Shown: positions 39,222 through 46,516 of the stretch, one piece after another
Position numbering within the stretch: position 1 is the first letter of the stretch
Layout: every line of letters starts with the position of its first letter
Origin: [Bacillus] enclensis
Lineage (GTDB): Bacteria; Bacillota; Bacilli; Bacillales; Bacillaceae_B
Length of the DNA: 64,000 nucleotides
Assembly (NCBI RefSeq): GCF_001456935.1
Contig: NZ_KQ758483.1
Location: 682,001 to 746,000 of the forward strand
Direction of reading: 5' to 3'
Notes under the pieces: generated by a model
Told to the model about the DNA's origin: nothing
The model's input: only the letters and a program-made list of their open reading frames with translations
The model's database searches: none
Translations under genes and position numbers: made by a program

Positions 39222-40019
39222 ATGCTGGAATATAAAGTACATCAAGAAGAATTTGAGGAATATGTTATATTCCTTCATGGCATCGGAGGCAATTCGACTG
39301 TTTTTGGAAAGCAGCTCAATGAATTTAAAAAACAGTATAATGTCATAACCGTACACCTGCCTGGTCATGGCAAGTCCCCGAGTGTAAAAAGCTATGATGA
39401 AAGATTCTCAATTGAATTGAATCTCCGGGAAGTTTTAAAAGTCATGGATCACTTGAATATAGACCGTGCTCATTTTGTTGGTGTATCACTGGGATCCATC
39501 TTTATTCATGCCCTGATGCAGCGATATCCCCACCGGGTGAAAAGCGCTGTTTTAGCCGGATGCATCACACGGTTTACACCTTTTGCATCCATACTTTTAA
39601 AGTTGGGAGACGGAATAAAATCGCTTATGCCATTTTTATGGCTGTATAGAATATTTGCCTATATTATGATGCCGAAGAATAATCATGCTGTTTCACGTAA
39701 GCTTTTCATACGGGAAGCAAAAAAAATGAACAGGGAATGTTTCTTAAGTTGGTACAGATTGACCCCTTTTGTTAAATCTACTTATCAACTTGTCCAGACA
39801 AAGGCCCCGCATATTCCGAAGCTGTATATTTCGGGGAGGGAGGATCACTTATTTGTAAAAGCCCTTGAAGAAGATATTCAGGGGGATCCTTCAGCAGAGA
39901 CAGTCTTTTTGGATGACTGTGGACACGTCTGCAATGTTGAAAAGCCTGCTGATTTTAATAAACATGCATTGGAATTTCTTTCGCGCCAGTCAGTATGTCA
40001 GCTGAAAAGAGTCCAATAA
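39222..40019 (+). CDS. Alpha/beta hydrolase
   Basis: The 265-residue hydrolase has the oxyanion motif FLHGIGGNS (about residues 17-25), nucleophile Ser in HFVGVSLGSIF (about 91), an Asp in SGREDHLF (about 210) and His in DDCGHVCNVEKP (about 237), so the triad is complete. Between residues 120 and 190 lies a mobile cap. The layout is that of general esterases and lipid or lactone hydrolases. ATG 39222 has TAAGGAGCG upstream. Neighbours are unrelated and a terminator follows. Substrate unknown. Confidence 0.85.
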   Translation: MLEYKVHQEEFEEYVIFLHGIGGNSTVFGKQLNEFKKQYNVITVHLPGHGKSPSVKSYDERFSIELNLREVLKVMDHLNIDRAHFVGVSLGSIFIHALMQRYPHRVKSAVLAGCITRFTPFASILLKLGDGIKSLMPFLWLYRIFAYIMMPKNNHAVSRKLFIREAKKMNRECFLSWYRLTPFVKSTYQLVQTKAPHIPKLYISGREDHLFVKALEEDIQGDPSAETVFLDDCGHVCNVEKPADFNKHALEFLSRQSVCQLKRVQ

Positions 40020-40024
40020 ACCAA

Positions 40025-40056
40025 AAAACCATTTTACTAACGTAAGGTGGTTTTTC
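40025..40056 (+). terminator. Terminator after alpha/beta hydrolase gene
   Basis: AAAACCATTTTAC and GTAAGGTGGTTTTT form a stem with a short loop. Confidence 0.7.
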
Positions 40057-40137
40057 TATTTGTTCAATTGATAGAGTTGATGACTAAAAAAGGAAAATGA
40101 GGTTTGTAGAAAGAATATAGAAGAGAGGAGGATTAGA

Positions 40138-40854
40138 ATGAAGGATCTGTTTAATTTCCGCTATAAAGAATTTCCATTTCAAATTTATTCTGCTTCACAT
40201 ATTATTGCCGTCCTTCTGATGATCATTTTCATTGTCCTATTATACAAATATAGAAACAATTTAAGCATGAACGGCAAGAAAGCGATAAGATTGATACTCA
40301 TAGCAACACTTGCAGCAGGAGAATTATTTTTTCAATTTTGGTATGCGTTGAATGGGTTATGGTCTCCTGCCGTGAATCTGCCGTTTCAATTATGCTCCTT
40401 ATCAATATATTTGTGTATCATCATGCTGATAACGAGAAATAAATTGATTTTTGAAGTTGCTTTTTTTGCTAGTCTCACAGGTGCATTCATTGCCATGATC
40501 ACGCCAGAACTATTTTTTGGATATCCGCACATCAGATTTTTTCAGTTTTTTATCGTGCATGCAGCCATCATCCTTTCTTGTTTTTATATGAGGTGGGTTG
40601 AAGGTTTCTCGTTGACGGTTCTATCCCCGATAAAGTCATTTCTTGGGTTGAACCTGTTCGCAGCTGCAGCATATGTTCTGAATATGGCCTTTGGAGGGAA
40701 TTATATGTTCCTTGCTCATAAGCCATACAATCCCAGTCCAATTGACTATTTAGGCGATTACCCATGGTACTTGTTGTCATTGGAAGCAATCTCCCTGATC
40801 CTGTTCTATCTGATGTATCTACCTATCCATCTTAATAAAAATGTAAAAAAATGA
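40138..40854 (+). CDS. ywaF: YwaF/TIGR02206-family membrane protein
   Basis: The 238-residue protein has seven predicted membrane helices. The family pattern is clear: PFQLCSLSIYLCIIMLIT (about residues 81-98), ITPELFFGYPHIRFFQFFIVH (a loop with the conserved Pro, Glu, His and Phe residues, about 120-140) and a C-terminal YNPSPIDYLGDYPWY. Members occur across Bacilli with no known function. ATG 40138 follows a GAGAGGAGG site. It lies 105 bases upstream of the plsY-like gene and may or may not belong to that operon. Confidence 0.8.
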   Translation: MKDLFNFRYKEFPFQIYSASHIIAVLLMIIFIVLLYKYRNNLSMNGKKAIRLILIATLAAGELFFQFWYALNGLWSPAVNLPFQLCSLSIYLCIIMLITRNKLIFEVAFFASLTGAFIAMITPELFFGYPHIRFFQFFIVHAAIILSCFYMRWVEGFSLTVLSPIKSFLGLNLFAAAAYVLNMAFGGNYMFLAHKPYNPSPIDYLGDYPWYLLSLEAISLILFYLMYLPIHLNKNVKK

Positions 40855-40958: not shown

Positions 40959-41516
40959 TTGGAGAATTCAATAATTGGATTTCTAGTGATCTCGGTGGTC
41001 TCCTATCTGGCCGGATCCATAACAGGGGCATTCTATATCATTAAATGGCAGACAGGCCAGGATATTAGAAAAATAGGGAGCAAAAACGTAGGTGCAACAA
41101 ATGCAGGACGCATACTTGGCAAAAAAGGGTTTCTCCTAACCTTGCTCATTGATGCTGCCAAGGTGTTTATTACTTTGTTCCTGGTGAAGGAAGGACTTGC
41201 AGGGAGTGATTTTGCACTAATACTCAGTGCGGTATTCCTTTGTATCGGTCATTTATTTCCGATACAGCTCAGGTTTCACGGCGGCAAAGGTGTGGTCGTT
41301 TACCTTGCTTCTGCATTATTTTTAGTGCCTTTGACAATCGGAGCTGCCGCGGCAGTCATGGGGGCAGCTTACTTGCTGCTTCATCGTTATAAAACGGCGG
41401 GGTTTCTTACGATGACATCAATCCCCGTAGCGGCTTTTTTGATTGAAGATTCATTCATCCTGCCCAGTGGTCTTCTCTTCTTGTTCATCACAGTGATTCT
41501 GTCCCACAATAAATAG
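40959..41516 (+). CDS. PlsY-like acyl-phosphate:glycerol-3-phosphate acyltransferase (second-copy type)
   Basis: This 185-residue membrane protein has five helices and the PlsY loops: GSKNVGATNAGR (about residues 41-52) and RFHGGKGVVVY (about 107-117), which bind the phosphates of acyl-phosphate and glycerol-3-phosphate. PlsY makes lysophosphatidic acid for membrane lipids. The housekeeping plsY of Bacillus normally lies near parE/parC, so this is probably an extra paralogue. The start is TTG 40959 behind AGGTG. Its neighbours, an acyltransferase-aminotransferase fusion and an LtaS-like enzyme, suggest it supplies a dedicated lipid. Confidence 0.85.
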   Translation: MENSIIGFLVISVVSYLAGSITGAFYIIKWQTGQDIRKIGSKNVGATNAGRILGKKGFLLTLLIDAAKVFITLFLVKEGLAGSDFALILSAVFLCIGHLFPIQLRFHGGKGVVVYLASALFLVPLTIGAAAAVMGAAYLLLHRYKTAGFLTMTSIPVAAFLIEDSFILPSGLLFLFITVILSHNK

Positions 41517-41579
41517 ATGATTATCCCCTGAATGTTGAAAGAACAAGATTTTTTACATCACCTAAGAGGAGGTACATAT

Positions 41580-43193
41580 ATGGGTCATCAATCCTTGCTA
41601 TATAAAATTGCAGACGATCCAAAAGAACTTCAACAAATCAATCAATTGAATTATCAAACCTTTGTGAATGAAATACCGCAGCATGAGGAGAATGAAGAAA
41701 AGCTGCTTGTGGATAAATTTCATGATGAAAATACATACATTATCGCGAAAAACCATGAAGAAATCGTTGGTATGATTGCGGTTCGTGCCAAGCGTCCGTT
41801 TTCTCTGGATAATAAGATCCCTAACCTGAATCAATTCATTCCTTCCGGCAGTGAACCTTGTGAAGTTCGTCTTCTTTCGGTAAAGGATGAGTATAGGAGC
41901 ACAAGAGTATTTTACGGATTATGTAAAAGGCTTGTTCAACTGTGCCTTGAAGAAGGGTATGATCTTGCTTTTATCTCTGGTACAGTCCGTCAGCTTAAAT
42001 TGTATAAGAGAATCGGCTTTATTCCTTTTGCTTCCCTGGTTGGGGAGGAAGATGCGCGTTTTCAGCCAATGTACATAACAAAGGCGAGTTTTGAGAAATC
42101 TACAAAGGCATTTCAAAAACTGATGGAAAACGTTACCCTCAATAATGAAAGGAGTGGAGCCCACTCTTTCCTTCCAGGCCCGGTCCCTCTTCACCCTGCG
42201 GTGAAAAGGGCATTGGGGAAGACTCCCATTTCCCACCGAAGTGAAGCTTTTTTGAAAGAAATAGAAGAAATTAAATTTAATTTATGCCGGCTGACCCAAG
42301 CCAATCATGCTGAAGTAGTGGTAGGCACCGGTACCCTCACCAATGACATGGCAGCTCAGCAGCTGAAGCGGTTTAAAGGAGATGGTTTGATACTCGCCAA
42401 CGGGGAGTTTGGCTTCAGGCTGATTGATCACGCCAAAAGAAGCGGATTGTCTTTCAGAACTTTGGAAAAGCAATGGGGAGAGGATGTATCACTTAAAGAA
42501 ATCGAATCCGCTATGAAAGCCTTCTCGCCTGACTGGATATGGACGGTACATTGCGAAACGTCCACCGGTTATTTATATGATTTGAAGGGGATATTGGCAT
42601 TATCAAAAAAATTTCATGCAGAATTGTGTGTGGACGCTTGCAGCTCTGTAGGAGTTGTACCGGTAGATTTTAAAGAATGCTATCTTGCGACTTCAGTAAG
42701 CGGAAAGGGTTTGGGTTCTTTACCGGGACTTGGTATTATATTTCACAGGGATGCGTTAACGTCCCATCCTTCTATACCGCGATACTTGGATATCGGCTTG
42801 TATGCAGAAAATGGGAGCATCCCGTTCACTCATTCCTCCAATCTTATATCTTCGTTAAAAGAAGCAATAAGAAATATCGATTACGTTGCTAATCTCCGTT
42901 TAGCCCGTGCTGTCAGAGAAGCAATGGAAAAATGGGATGTACGCATAATGGGGAATCAGGACTATTCACCGGGGGTCATCACCATTGAATTGCCGTATGG
43001 GGTATCAAGCAGGGTGGTCGGAGACAAATGTAAGGAAAGAGGAGTACTGCTCAGCTATGAAAGTGGCTATCTCCTAAATATGAATTGGGTACAGCTCGCA
43101 TTGATGGGATATCAGAATGAGGAAGAAGTAATGAAAGCAATCAATTCAATAAAGGAAATAATTGCTCCTGTAAAGGAAATAGGGTATATATAA
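41580..43193 (+). CDS. Fusion of GNAT-type N-acyltransferase and class V aminotransferase
   Basis: Residues 1-190 resemble GNAT or autoinducer-synthase-like acyltransferases (LNYQTFVNEIPQHE, IVGMIAVRAKRPF, VRLLSVKDEYRS, LYKRIGFIPF). Residues 205-537 form a class V PLP aminotransferase with LPGPVPLHPAV, GTGTLTNDMAA, VDACSSVGVVP and the PLP lysine Lys376 in SVSGKGLGS; this type includes alanine-glyoxylate and 2-aminoethylphosphonate transaminases. ATG 41580 has AGAGGAGG upstream and a frame start at 41532 has none. The next gene begins at the stop codon (zero gap), and plsY lies 63 bases upstream. It may make and acylate an amino compound; the product is unknown. Confidence 0.85.
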   Translation: MGHQSLLYKIADDPKELQQINQLNYQTFVNEIPQHEENEEKLLVDKFHDENTYIIAKNHEEIVGMIAVRAKRPFSLDNKIPNLNQFIPSGSEPCEVRLLSVKDEYRSTRVFYGLCKRLVQLCLEEGYDLAFISGTVRQLKLYKRIGFIPFASLVGEEDARFQPMYITKASFEKSTKAFQKLMENVTLNNERSGAHSFLPGPVPLHPAVKRALGKTPISHRSEAFLKEIEEIKFNLCRLTQANHAEVVVGTGTLTNDMAAQQLKRFKGDGLILANGEFGFRLIDHAKRSGLSFRTLEKQWGEDVSLKEIESAMKAFSPDWIWTVHCETSTGYLYDLKGILALSKKFHAELCVDACSSVGVVPVDFKECYLATSVSGKGLGSLPGLGIIFHRDALTSHPSIPRYLDIGLYAENGSIPFTHSSNLISSLKEAIRNIDYVANLRLARAVREAMEKWDVRIMGNQDYSPGVITIELPYGVSSRVVGDKCKERGVLLSYESGYLLNMNWVQLALMGYQNEEEVMKAINSIKEIIAPVKEIGYI

Positions 43194-45044
43194 ATGTCAA
43201 AAATGAAACAAATGTATCTTAACCTAAAAAAATTCAAACTGATCGGAATCGTATTAATCCTTCTATGGATAAAAACATTGATTGTCATGCTCGCAGGCTT
43301 TAATATTACCCCGCATTCTTTAATGGATATATGCTTGCTTCTCATCAATTCAATAGGTTCTTTAATGATCGTGCTCGGCGTCAGCTTTTATTTTAGAAAA
43401 AAAATCCACGCTTTTACATTGTTTCTGATGATGGTGATTATAACAGGGATTTTATATGCAGATTTACTATATTTCCGATTTTATTCTGATTATGTAACCC
43501 TGCCGATATTGTTTCAATTTAAAAATGTCGGTGGAATCGGCCCCAGCACATTTGAATTGATGAGTCCATGGGATGTATTGCTTTTTATTGATATTCTTTG
43601 GGCTGGATGGTATCTGAAGAAAAAGAGGCGTATGCCTTCCATCAAACCAAGAGAAAAGGCGACTTATTTGTTGGCCGGCACAGCTGTTGTCATGTTGACT
43701 ATATTACTTGGTTTGATTAAGAGTCCATACCTGTTCGAGGAGGTATATGACCGGGAACAAATGGTCACGGCTATCGGTCCTTTTAATTATCATCTATACG
43801 ACACAGGGTACGCTTTGGGTGTGAATCTCAATCCGTTAACCGCCTCCAGGAACGACACGAGCTCTCCCCTGAAATATACAAAGTCCAAGGAAAATGAACA
43901 GACTGATTTATTTGGTATTGCAAAAGGGAAAAATGTCATTTTGATCAGTATGGAGTCGACCCAGAATTTTGTCATTAATAAGAAAATCGAAGGAGAAGAA
44001 ATCACTCCCTTTCTTAATTCACTAGTGGATGAGAGCTTCTATTTCAATCAGATATATGATCAGACCGCCCAAGGGAAGACCTCAGATTCGGAGTTCATGA
44101 TTGATACAGGTCTTTACCCGCTCGCAAGCGGATCTGTGTTTGTGCGTAATCCGGATAATGTATTTAAGGGGATGCCTCACATCCTGAAGGAAAGCGGGGG
44201 ATATTATTCAGCCGTTTTCCACGGGAATGATGCCACCTTTTGGAATCGGAACAGAATGTATGATTCTCTTGGATACGACCGTTTCTTCTCAAAGAAAGAC
44301 TATGAGGTGACGGAAGAAAACTCAGTGAATTATGGGATAAAAGATATTCCGTTTTTCGATCAGTCCGTTTCTTACCTTCAGGATCTTCCCACACCGTTCT
44401 ATTCACGTTTTATAACTCTGACAAATCACTTCCCGTTTTTATTGGAAGAGAAGGATCAATTTATATCCGAAGCATCAACGAAAGTGGATGTAGTCAATCG
44501 ATATGTGACGACTGTGCGGTATGAAGATGAAGCGATCAAAGAATTTTTTGGGAAATTGAAGGAAGAGGGCATTTATCAGGATTCAATCTTCGTACTTTAT
44601 GGTGACCATTATGGCATTTCCGAAAAATATGAGCCTGGTGTCATGGAGCTGCTTGGTATGGAAGATACTACTCTTAATCACGTGCAGCTTCAGCAGGTTC
44701 CGCTTATTATTCATATACCCGGTACTGAAGGAAAGACCATCACATCCATAGGCGGGGAAGTTGATATCCGTCCTACCATCCTTCACTTACTGGGAATTGA
44801 ATCCAGGGAAAATCTTTCATTCGGTCACAACTTGTTTACAAGGGTCAAGAACCATCCCGTCATTTTCAGGGACGGGGGATTCGTTACAGAAAAGTATATA
44901 TTCAAGGACAATATGTGTTACAGAAGAAAGAACGGGGAAGCAGTTATGGATAATCAGTGTGATTCTTATAAAGAGATCGCCAGAAAAGAATTGGGGATGT
45001 CTGACGATATCATTTACGGAGATCTGCTCAGGTTTCTCGAGTAA
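43194..45044 (+). CDS. LtaS-family lipoteichoic acid synthase-like protein
   Basis: The 616-residue protein has five N-terminal membrane helices (about residues 10-190) and an extracellular sulfatase-fold domain (about 240-560). The metal-binding Glu is in LISMESTQNF, the catalytic Thr in QGKTSDSEF (about residue 302), and further ligands in GDHYG and the FHGND segment. LtaS enzymes polymerise glycerol phosphate from phosphatidylglycerol onto a lipid anchor on the outer membrane face; related forms make the primer or modified polymers. ATG 43194 begins directly after the stop of the fusion gene, so the two are co-translated. Which LtaS paralogue it is cannot be told. Confidence 0.9.
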   Translation: MSKMKQMYLNLKKFKLIGIVLILLWIKTLIVMLAGFNITPHSLMDICLLLINSIGSLMIVLGVSFYFRKKIHAFTLFLMMVIITGILYADLLYFRFYSDYVTLPILFQFKNVGGIGPSTFELMSPWDVLLFIDILWAGWYLKKKRRMPSIKPREKATYLLAGTAVVMLTILLGLIKSPYLFEEVYDREQMVTAIGPFNYHLYDTGYALGVNLNPLTASRNDTSSPLKYTKSKENEQTDLFGIAKGKNVILISMESTQNFVINKKIEGEEITPFLNSLVDESFYFNQIYDQTAQGKTSDSEFMIDTGLYPLASGSVFVRNPDNVFKGMPHILKESGGYYSAVFHGNDATFWNRNRMYDSLGYDRFFSKKDYEVTEENSVNYGIKDIPFFDQSVSYLQDLPTPFYSRFITLTNHFPFLLEEKDQFISEASTKVDVVNRYVTTVRYEDEAIKEFFGKLKEEGIYQDSIFVLYGDHYGISEKYEPGVMELLGMEDTTLNHVQLQQVPLIIHIPGTEGKTITSIGGEVDIRPTILHLLGIESRENLSFGHNLFTRVKNHPVIFRDGGFVTEKYIFKDNMCYRRKNGEAVMDNQCDSYKEIARKELGMSDDIIYGDLLRFLE

Positions 45045-45256: not shown

Positions 45257-46516
45257 CTATTTACTTTTTTGATTTGCCAATGGCAGGGAGATATTTACTT
45301 TTGTCCCTCTGCCGGGTTCACTTTCGTATTCAATCATACCGTGCATCTCACGGATGATTTTATTTGTGACCATGCTGCCGAGTCCGGTACCTTTGGTCTT
45401 GGTTGTATAAAAGGGGAGCCCAATTTTATTTAGTTCCTCGTGACTCATTCCTTTTCCGTCATCCGTTATCGTTACTACGATTTTATTGGATGCAGGGATT
45501 TCCTTTGTTTCAATAATTACTTCTCCTTGACCATCTATCGCTTCAATCCCATTCTTTATGACGTTCATGATTGCCTGTTTTAAATACTGTTCATCTCCTT
45601 TGATGAAATGTTGTCCTGATGTACTGTAGAAAATCGAAACATTCGAATAAGAGGCAAAAGGTCTTAATAGTTCGACACAATCATGAAGGACTTTATCTGC
45701 ATTCAGTAAGGAAAGTTCGAATTTTCCAGGTCTTGATACGTTTAGATAATCTGTGATGATCTTATTGGTACGATCCAGTTCATCAAGAATCAAAGGTGAA
45801 TATTTCTTGAACTGTTTGTCATTCGTATCCTCGGCCAGGTGTTGAATGAAACCTCTTACGGTCGCCAGCGGATTTCTAATTTCGTGAGCAATGGATGCAG
45901 CCATCTGACCTGCCATATTTAACTTATCGAGGTACATCATTTCTTCAATTTGTTTATTCGTACGAATTAAATATTCAATAATAAAGACGATTGAAATAAA
46001 TGTAAGATAAAAAACACCAAAGTAATTGAAATAAAATCCGGTATGTAAAAAAGGAACGAAAATGAAAATATTAATAAAATAAACAATCATATAGATGAAA
46101 AAAATGACTGTACTCGTAAAGAATGTTGAACCTGATGATAGAAACAGTTTCCGGAAAGCGAGCGCGACCAAATATGCCAGAATGGAAACAACCAAACCAG
46201 TAGACACAAAAGGACCGCCTATTATAGATCTGAAGATCAGCACGAGCAAAAGAACCAAAGAACCAGAAATCCATCCAGCGTATAGAGTGACTACCAAAAT
46301 AGCAATCATTCTTAAGTCAAAATGGGTTTTACCCAGTGTCTCGATGGGATAGAGCATACATAGAAACGCTCCGAATGCACCGATGAGACCGTATGTTATT
46401 TTATGCTTTAAAAACAGCATCTGCTTTACCTTGAAAGGAAAAAATATATTAGCGTTGTATGTCAATGATAACAGAATTGTGATATTGACTAATAATGTCT
46501 TAATAAGTGTGATCAA
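45257..46516 (-). CDS. kinB: KinB-like sporulation sensor histidine kinase
   Basis: The 419-residue protein has an N-terminal 5TMR-LYT-type membrane domain of six helices (residues 1-180, with the FDLRMIAILVVTLYAGWISG region typical of LytS/KinB). A short linker leads to HisKA with His211 in SIAHEIRNPLATVRG and an HATPase domain with NVIKNGIEAIDG, DDGKGM and GTGLGSM. The layout and length match KinB, which responds to membrane-linked signals and phosphorylates Spo0F. TTG 46516 has GGAGG seven bases upstream. There is no partner gene such as kapB beside it. G2 reads GTGLGSM, slightly unusual. Confidence 0.85.
   Translation of the reverse strand: MITLIKTLLVNITILLSLTYNANIFFPFKVKQMLFLKHKITYGLIGAFGAFLCMLYPIETLGKTHFDLRMIAILVVTLYAGWISGSLVLLLVLIFRSIIGGPFVSTGLVVSILAYLVALAFRKLFLSSGSTFFTSTVIFFIYMIVYFINIFIFVPFLHTGFYFNYFGVFYLTFISIVFIIEYLIRTNKQIEEMMYLDKLNMAGQMAASIAHEIRNPLATVRGFIQHLAEDTNDKQFKKYSPLILDELDRTNKIITDYLNVSRPGKFELSLLNADKVLHDCVELLRPFASYSNVSIFYSTSGQHFIKGDEQYLKQAIMNVIKNGIEAIDGQGEVIIETKEIPASNKIVVTITDDGKGMSHEELNKIGLPFYTTKTKGTGLGSMVTNKIIREMHGMIEYESEPGRGTKVNISLPLANQKSK

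Follow-up and report, generated by a model that had tools for sequence, protein, structure and literature searches.

The three genes at positions 40959–45044 of a 64,000-nucleotide stretch of the [Bacillus] enclensis genome (contig NZ_KQ758483.1, positions 682,001 to 746,000; hereafter, the window) encode a PlsY-like acyltransferase (PlsY2), a fusion of an N-acyltransferase with an aminotransferase, and an LtaS-type enzyme. A comparison of loci from Bacillota and Gammaproteobacteria demonstrates that the conserved unit is PlsY2 together with the fusion, with the LtaS-type gene being an add-on in Bacilli. The balance of the evidence tips slightly towards a lipid module in which the two proteins would make an amide analogue of phosphatidic acid via serinol phosphate. 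A bolder proposal, to which we give a little under an even chance, is that the analogue represents an undescribed class of bacterial phospholipid: a serinol-phosphate-based phosphatidic acid in which one chain is held by an amide bond, the product of a mobile module of two genes, with N-acyl serinols as its intermediates or breakdown products.

The plsY2 gene (40959–41516, + strand) starts with TTG and encodes 185 amino acids that match the G3P_acyltransf profile PF02660. The reading frame of the fusion is open from 41532; judged by the strong ribosome site AGAGGAGG before it, the ATG at 41580 is the better start. From this ATG, the fusion (+ strand) is 537 amino acids long and ends at 43193. 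Its amino terminal region is a FeeM/LuxI-like N-acyltransferase domain of GNAT type (41580–42119, residues 1–180), assigned from PF21926 and a predicted fold, which is followed by a class V aminotransferase domain dependent on pyridoxal phosphate (PLP; 42159–43190, about residues 194–537). In terms of domain families, the protein is a FeeM/Acetyltransf_5 GNAT joined to Aminotran_5. The TAA stop codon (43191–43193) is met immediately by the ATG of the LtaS-type gene (43194–45044, + strand), whose product of 616 amino acids matches the Sulfatase and LtaS profiles and is the fourth LtaS-type enzyme of the genome. With the 41580 start, the gaps are 63 bases between PlsY2 and the fusion and 0 bases between the fusion and the LtaS-type gene. 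Open reading frame calls, Pfam, and NCBIfam thus confirm the three tightly spaced + strand genes that an initial annotation of this DNA had described.

The comparison covered 86 distinct fusion loci with enough flanking sequence, drawn from Bacilli, from further Bacillota, and from Gammaproteobacteria. In 82 of them, the gene immediately upstream is a PlsY-type gene in the same orientation, mostly at a distance of 40 bases or less or overlapping, and a chance or strain-specific gene order was therefore rejected. Since the PlsY-type gene is the constant partner of the fusion, a lipid is the likely product, in keeping with the lipid anchor that the initial annotation had proposed for the two proteins. 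Downstream of the fusion, 47 of the 82 loci have an LtaS-type gene, typically with an overlap of 4 bases. The other 35 loci, found in Tepidibacter, Exiguobacterium, Desulfitobacterium-like genomes, and one gammaproteobacterium among others, have the pair without LtaS and next to unrelated neighbours; a replacement for LtaS was rejected since the downstream genes are unrelated and varied. The order therefore recurs far beyond this strain, and uniqueness is excluded; the proposed unit of three genes stands for the PlsY2-fusion pair but not for LtaS as a core member. Four of the 86 loci lack PlsY beside the fusion, and two of these genomes (G001 and G018) have a PlsY2-clade gene elsewhere.

Sampling across the phylum at a strict threshold recovered the fusion from just 3 of 399 genomes, that of the window among them, and its distribution is therefore patchy. 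It is present in 37 of 61 near relatives of the window genome, 47 of 300 genomes of its order, 51 of 400 of its class, 9 of 83 of another Bacillota class, and 3 of 274 gammaproteobacterial genomes (the class of a Chromatiales metagenome-assembled genome), as well as in named Tepidibacter and Exiguobacterium records. Outside the genus of the window, a second PlsY accompanies the fusion in 4 of 4 genomes versus 3 of 21 genomes without it. The module is dispensable, since the fusion has decayed in several genomes. Within the genus of the window, it is deleted in G011 and G024 and survives as a remnant in G023 with PlsY2 kept in all three, G011 having lost LtaS as well. The gene is also interrupted by a stop codon in G006, split in G009, and split in G764 from another class. 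At the loci where the fusion is deleted, reduced, stopped, or split (L132, L133, and L134; those of G006, G009, and G764), PlsY2 and often LtaS are still there. In Cytobacillus spongiae (NZ_CP089998.1, locus L040), the whole cluster and its neighbours are carried by a replicon of 690 kb that has a plasmid annotation.

PlsY2 belongs to the PlsY acyltransferase family (113 bits against PF02660 with a cut-off of 24.1, E = 1.9e-32) and scores below every NCBIfam PlsY equivalog cut-off. A canonical PlsY is encoded elsewhere in the same genome as a single copy (G000:C2:874239–874766, 186 bits). In a maximum-likelihood tree, 37 of 37 sampled fusion-linked PlsYs were placed apart from the canonical PlsYs, separated by a branch with 99% support in the Shimodaira-Hasegawa-like approximate likelihood ratio test (SH-aLRT). 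The window PlsY2 lies across this branch from the canonical clade, and a gammaproteobacterial fusion-linked PlsY falls inside the PlsY2 clade. Five unlinked PlsYs share the PlsY2 side of the tree, among them two whose genomes carry the fusion at another locus and two whose genomes have lost it.

From the crystal structure of aaPlsY, the phosphate clamp consists of Ser35, Arg45, Lys104, and Asn180, and the glycerol 2-hydroxyl is contacted by Ser142 and His177 (PMC5700162). In an alignment to aaPlsY, fusion-linked PlsYs retain Ser35 (75/77), Arg45 (74/77), and Lys104 (76/77), and the His177 equivalent is also retained in PlsY2. Position 142 is Gly in 73 of 77 fusion-linked PlsYs versus Ser in 30 of 30 canonical PlsYs, and the window PlsY2 does not carry the full canonical set of six residues for the glycerol 3-phosphate (G3P) site. 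Compared to the aaPlsY structures (PDB: 5xj5–5xj9), PlsY2 has the same fold family, the GGKG motif, and equivalents of Ser35, Arg45, Lys104, and His92; it differs in forming a separate clade that is always a second copy beside canonical PlsY, in the Ser142 to Gly change, and in the absence of Asn180 from the subclade of the window. Since the clamp is largely kept and Ser142 is replaced by Gly, the site would fit a phosphate acceptor that lacks a 2-hydroxyl. The residues suggest an acceptor that bears a phosphate and whose carbon 2 carries a group different from a free hydroxyl; judged by the residue frequencies among PlsY homologues in PMC5700162, the change at 142 is unusual but is not proof of an altered acceptor. 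A first phmmer alignment to aaPlsY had placed Phe at this position, which was replaced by Gly in a wider alignment with distant members; both exclude Ser. One PlsY2-clade protein (L138, G038:C24), from a genome without a fusion match, has Leu in place of the active-site Lys104 (GGLG) and may be a decaying copy.

Turning to the fusion, the FeeM profile PF21926 matches the amino terminal domain in 46 of 46 members. An AlphaFold2 model of this domain (predicted local distance difference test, pLDDT = 90) aligned with the acyl-homoserine lactone (AHL) synthase BjaI at a query TM-score (TMq) of 0.79 and with FeeM (PDB: 2g0b) at 0.72. While small GNAT acetyltransferases outrank these proteins by E-value, AHL synthases and FeeM give the best coverage. 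By profile and AHL-synthase-like fold, the domain is of the FeeM/N-acyl amino acid synthase type.

The aminotransferase domain shares the class V fold, with an invariant PLP lysine (K376) and aspartate (D352), with the AGT and 2-aminoethylphosphonate (AEP) aminotransferases (PDB: 1vjo, 1m32, 7e7g). It differs at the position of AGT Arg360 and PhnW Arg340, the residue that binds the substrate carboxylate. When aligned to 1m32, 7e7g, and 1vjo, the fusion has Gln505 at this position, invariant in all 48–49 aligned fusions. With Gln505 in place of the carboxylate-binding Arg, the domain points to a substrate without a carboxylate, as would be expected from this exchange. The closest named aminotransferase model is PhnW/AepZ, with a score far below the cut-offs; AEP was rejected as the amino compound on account of these scores and since its acylated product would offer PlsY2 no hydroxyl. 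PDB 9os7, in which a class V aminotransferase follows a domain of about 190 residues, was considered as a solved relative of the fusion and discarded, as it proved to be a Mycoplasma methionyl-tRNA synthetase with a nucleotidyltransferase as its amino terminal domain. This M. penetrans protein (PMC13215547) joins a nucleotidyltransferase-like domain to a class V aminotransferase in an architecture that resembles PntC-AEPT.

Outside reports identify the probable chemistry of the fusion. According to PMC9605164, citing Cohen et al. 2017, hm-NAS genes of Desulfitobacterium hafniense DP7 and Bacillus sp. 2_A_57_CT2 yielded N-palmitoyl serinol in E. coli. The hm-NAS genes are defined by PF13444 (PMC9762135), and Gemella is reported to have an N-acyl serinol gene (PMC11271093). 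Transamination of dihydroxyacetone phosphate (DHAP) to serinol phosphate, the reaction proposed for the fusion, is known for RtxA and Cj1437 (PMC3222319, PMC11800397), which are likened to it by reaction. In the eight fusion genomes checked (G000, G020, G137, G203, G666, G705, G728, and G734), the fusion is the sole PF13444 match. Because the reported producers belong to groups in which the fusion occurs, usually as the sole member of the relevant Pfam family, the fusion family is likely an N-acyl serinol synthase whose aminotransferase half supplies serinol or serinol phosphate. The synthase of Cohen et al. 2017 reportedly also carries an aminotransferase domain. The serinol chemistry itself is well supported by outside reports on genes from the same taxa, from which we infer the link to the fusion.

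Given the domains, the residues, and the reported serinol synthases, it is very probable that the fusion makes and N-acylates an amino compound, as first annotated, and this compound is probably serinol or serinol phosphate. The accompanying statement that no such set is known agrees with the literature searched, where this gene set was not found; for the activity of the fusion, it is probably incorrect in view of PMC9605164, citing Cohen et al. 2017. The activity is thus probably known, and the new part would be the PlsY2 partnership and the amide phospholipid. The hm-NAS of Cohen et al. 2017 share their taxa and Pfam family (PF13444/FeeM) with the fusion and probably belong to the same protein family; they differ in being described as makers of a free N-acyl amide, with neither a PlsY partner nor a phospholipid product mentioned in the accessible papers.

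Building on the observed genes, families, residues, and co-inheritance, a pathway of three steps can be proposed. Serinol phosphate (2-amino-3-hydroxypropyl phosphate) would first be formed from DHAP by the aminotransferase half, the FeeM-like half would place a fatty acyl chain, probably from acyl-acyl carrier protein, onto its amino group, and PlsY2 would transfer a second acyl chain from acyl phosphate onto the remaining hydroxyl. The carbon acylated by PlsY2 would be the one that canonical PlsY acylates, and Gly at 142 would leave space for the amide on carbon 2. The predicted product is 1-O-acyl-2-N-acyl-serinol-3-phosphate with one amide-bound chain, which ordinary phospholipid enzymes could pass on. 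We infer the phosphate form, the acceptor step of PlsY2, and a link to LtaS, by which the co-transcribed extra LtaS-type enzyme of many Bacilli may build or alter polyglycerol phosphate, with such lipids as its base or its source. The aminolipid pathways for ornithine, glycine, and glutamine lipids (OlsB-OlsA, GlsB-GlsA) have a similar logic, with PF13444-type N-acylation followed by O-acylation by a second enzyme and the genes side by side. Their O-acyltransferase belongs to the PlsC (LPLAT) family and targets the 3-hydroxyl of the first acyl chain (PMC11631085), whereas the PlsY2-fusion module has a PlsY-type enzyme, a backbone that would itself be acylated, and a fused aminotransferase.

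Several points weigh against this amide phospholipid pathway. The clamp residue Asn180, retained in distant members, is missing from the Bacillaceae subclade to which the window PlsY2 belongs, and among 7,288 PlsY homologues position 142 is Ser in 52.6%, Ala in 33.0%, and Gly in 5.2% (PMC5700162). The amino donor is unexplained without a carboxylate-binding Arg, as the known DHAP transaminases use amino acids. The link between the fusion and hm-NAS rests on shared taxa and PF13444, and G666 and G705 are only presumed to be Desulfitobacterium. Two gammaproteobacterial loci carry the fusion with no adjoining PlsY, G011 and G024 have kept PlsY2 but not the fusion, and a serinol phospholipid was not found in the literature searched.

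The persistence of PlsY2 in G011 and G024 would also suit an arrangement in which free N-acyl serinol, either a signal or a surfactant, is the final product of the fusion, and PlsY2 is an ordinary G3P acyltransferase isoenzyme that does no more than support lipid supply under the same conditions. PlsY2 retains most of the G3P clamp, and what E. coli formed was free N-palmitoyl serinol (PMC9605164); E. coli, however, is without PlsY2 and could dephosphorylate N-acyl-serinol phosphate. The separate PlsY clade, the co-inheritance across phyla, and the Ser142 to Gly change are hard to square with a mere isoenzyme, and this arrangement is considered unlikely.

It is more doubtful that the product of the fusion is an N-acyl amino acid, or some N-acyl amine other than that of serinol, and that PlsY2 then acylates it in a two-step aminolipid pathway like that of OlsB and OlsA. 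FeeM and PF13444 relatives do acylate amino acids (PMC11631085), and PhnW/AepZ as the closest aminotransferase model would indicate an aminophosphonate. Against this, the carboxylate-binding Arg is replaced by Gln505, and the clamp of PlsY2 needs a phosphate or phosphonate acceptor with a hydroxyl, which neither N-acyl amino acids nor N-acyl-aminoethylphosphonate would provide. The serinol report in PMC9605164 also comes from the same groups.

The LtaS-type protein has a membrane domain and a sulfatase-like domain with all catalytic residues, as in LtaS (YflE, PDB: 2w8d; LmLtaS, PDB: 4uoo), and its best PDB matches are LtaS and not primase. It retains E254, T296, W350, R352, H412, D471, and H472, the counterparts of the catalytic and substrate residues of SaLtaS (E255, T300, W354, R356, H416, D475, and H476). 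These residues are conserved in the cluster LtaS of other loci too, with Ser for Thr in two. The protein differs from LtaS in scoring 643.6 bits against the NCBIfam LtaS model, below the equivalog cut-off of 970, and in being an extra paralogue tied to the fusion, with 43, 39, and 31% identity to the three other LtaS-type enzymes of the genome. Phosphatidylglycerol is the lipid from which LtaS enzymes draw glycerol phosphate, so that an amide version of this lipid or of the lipoteichoic acid (LTA) anchor is possible. That the three genes form an LTA operon, as first annotated, with PlsY2 and the fusion making an amide-linked anchor that the LtaS-type enzyme extends, would account for the retained residues, the divergence from the other paralogues, and the 47 loci with LtaS, but is improbable since the extension step rests on gene order, G011 lost LtaS and kept PlsY2, and the 35 loci without LtaS include those of Clostridia, Desulfitobacterium-like genomes, and Gammaproteobacteria, which have no LTA. 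LTA thus cannot be what the genes serve in general.

N-acyl serinols are known mainly as signalling molecules of gut bacteria, discussed as hormones, and are agonists of human GPR119. If the amide phospholipid pathway is correct, they gain a native role where the reason for their bacterial synthesis is otherwise unclear; if a dedicated PlsY invariably accompanies their synthase, they probably lie on the way to a membrane lipid. An amide in place of an ester in a glycerophospholipid analogue would resist some phospholipases, and models of Gram-positive membranes and of lipoteichoic acid would have to make separate room for such a lipid. The pathway would, in addition, be the first of an aminolipid-like kind to be found with a PlsY-type and not a PlsC-type second acyltransferase, a possibility left open by PMC11631085.

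Two genes upstream of the cluster were considered as core members and rejected, as they adjoin it only in close relatives. The nearer encodes a TMEM164/YwaF-type membrane protein (40138–40854, + strand; PF14808, TIGR02206) that may be an extra member of the operon. The other encodes an alpha/beta hydrolase (39222–40019, + strand), which is syntenic only in close relatives and whose membership is doubtful. Both genes (39222–40854) hold their place in close relatives, even at L132 and L134, from which the fusion has been deleted. Immediately after the cluster, a gene for a membrane sensor histidine kinase (45257–46516, - strand; 5TM-5TMR_LYT, HisKA, and HATPase domains) is likewise kept in close relatives.

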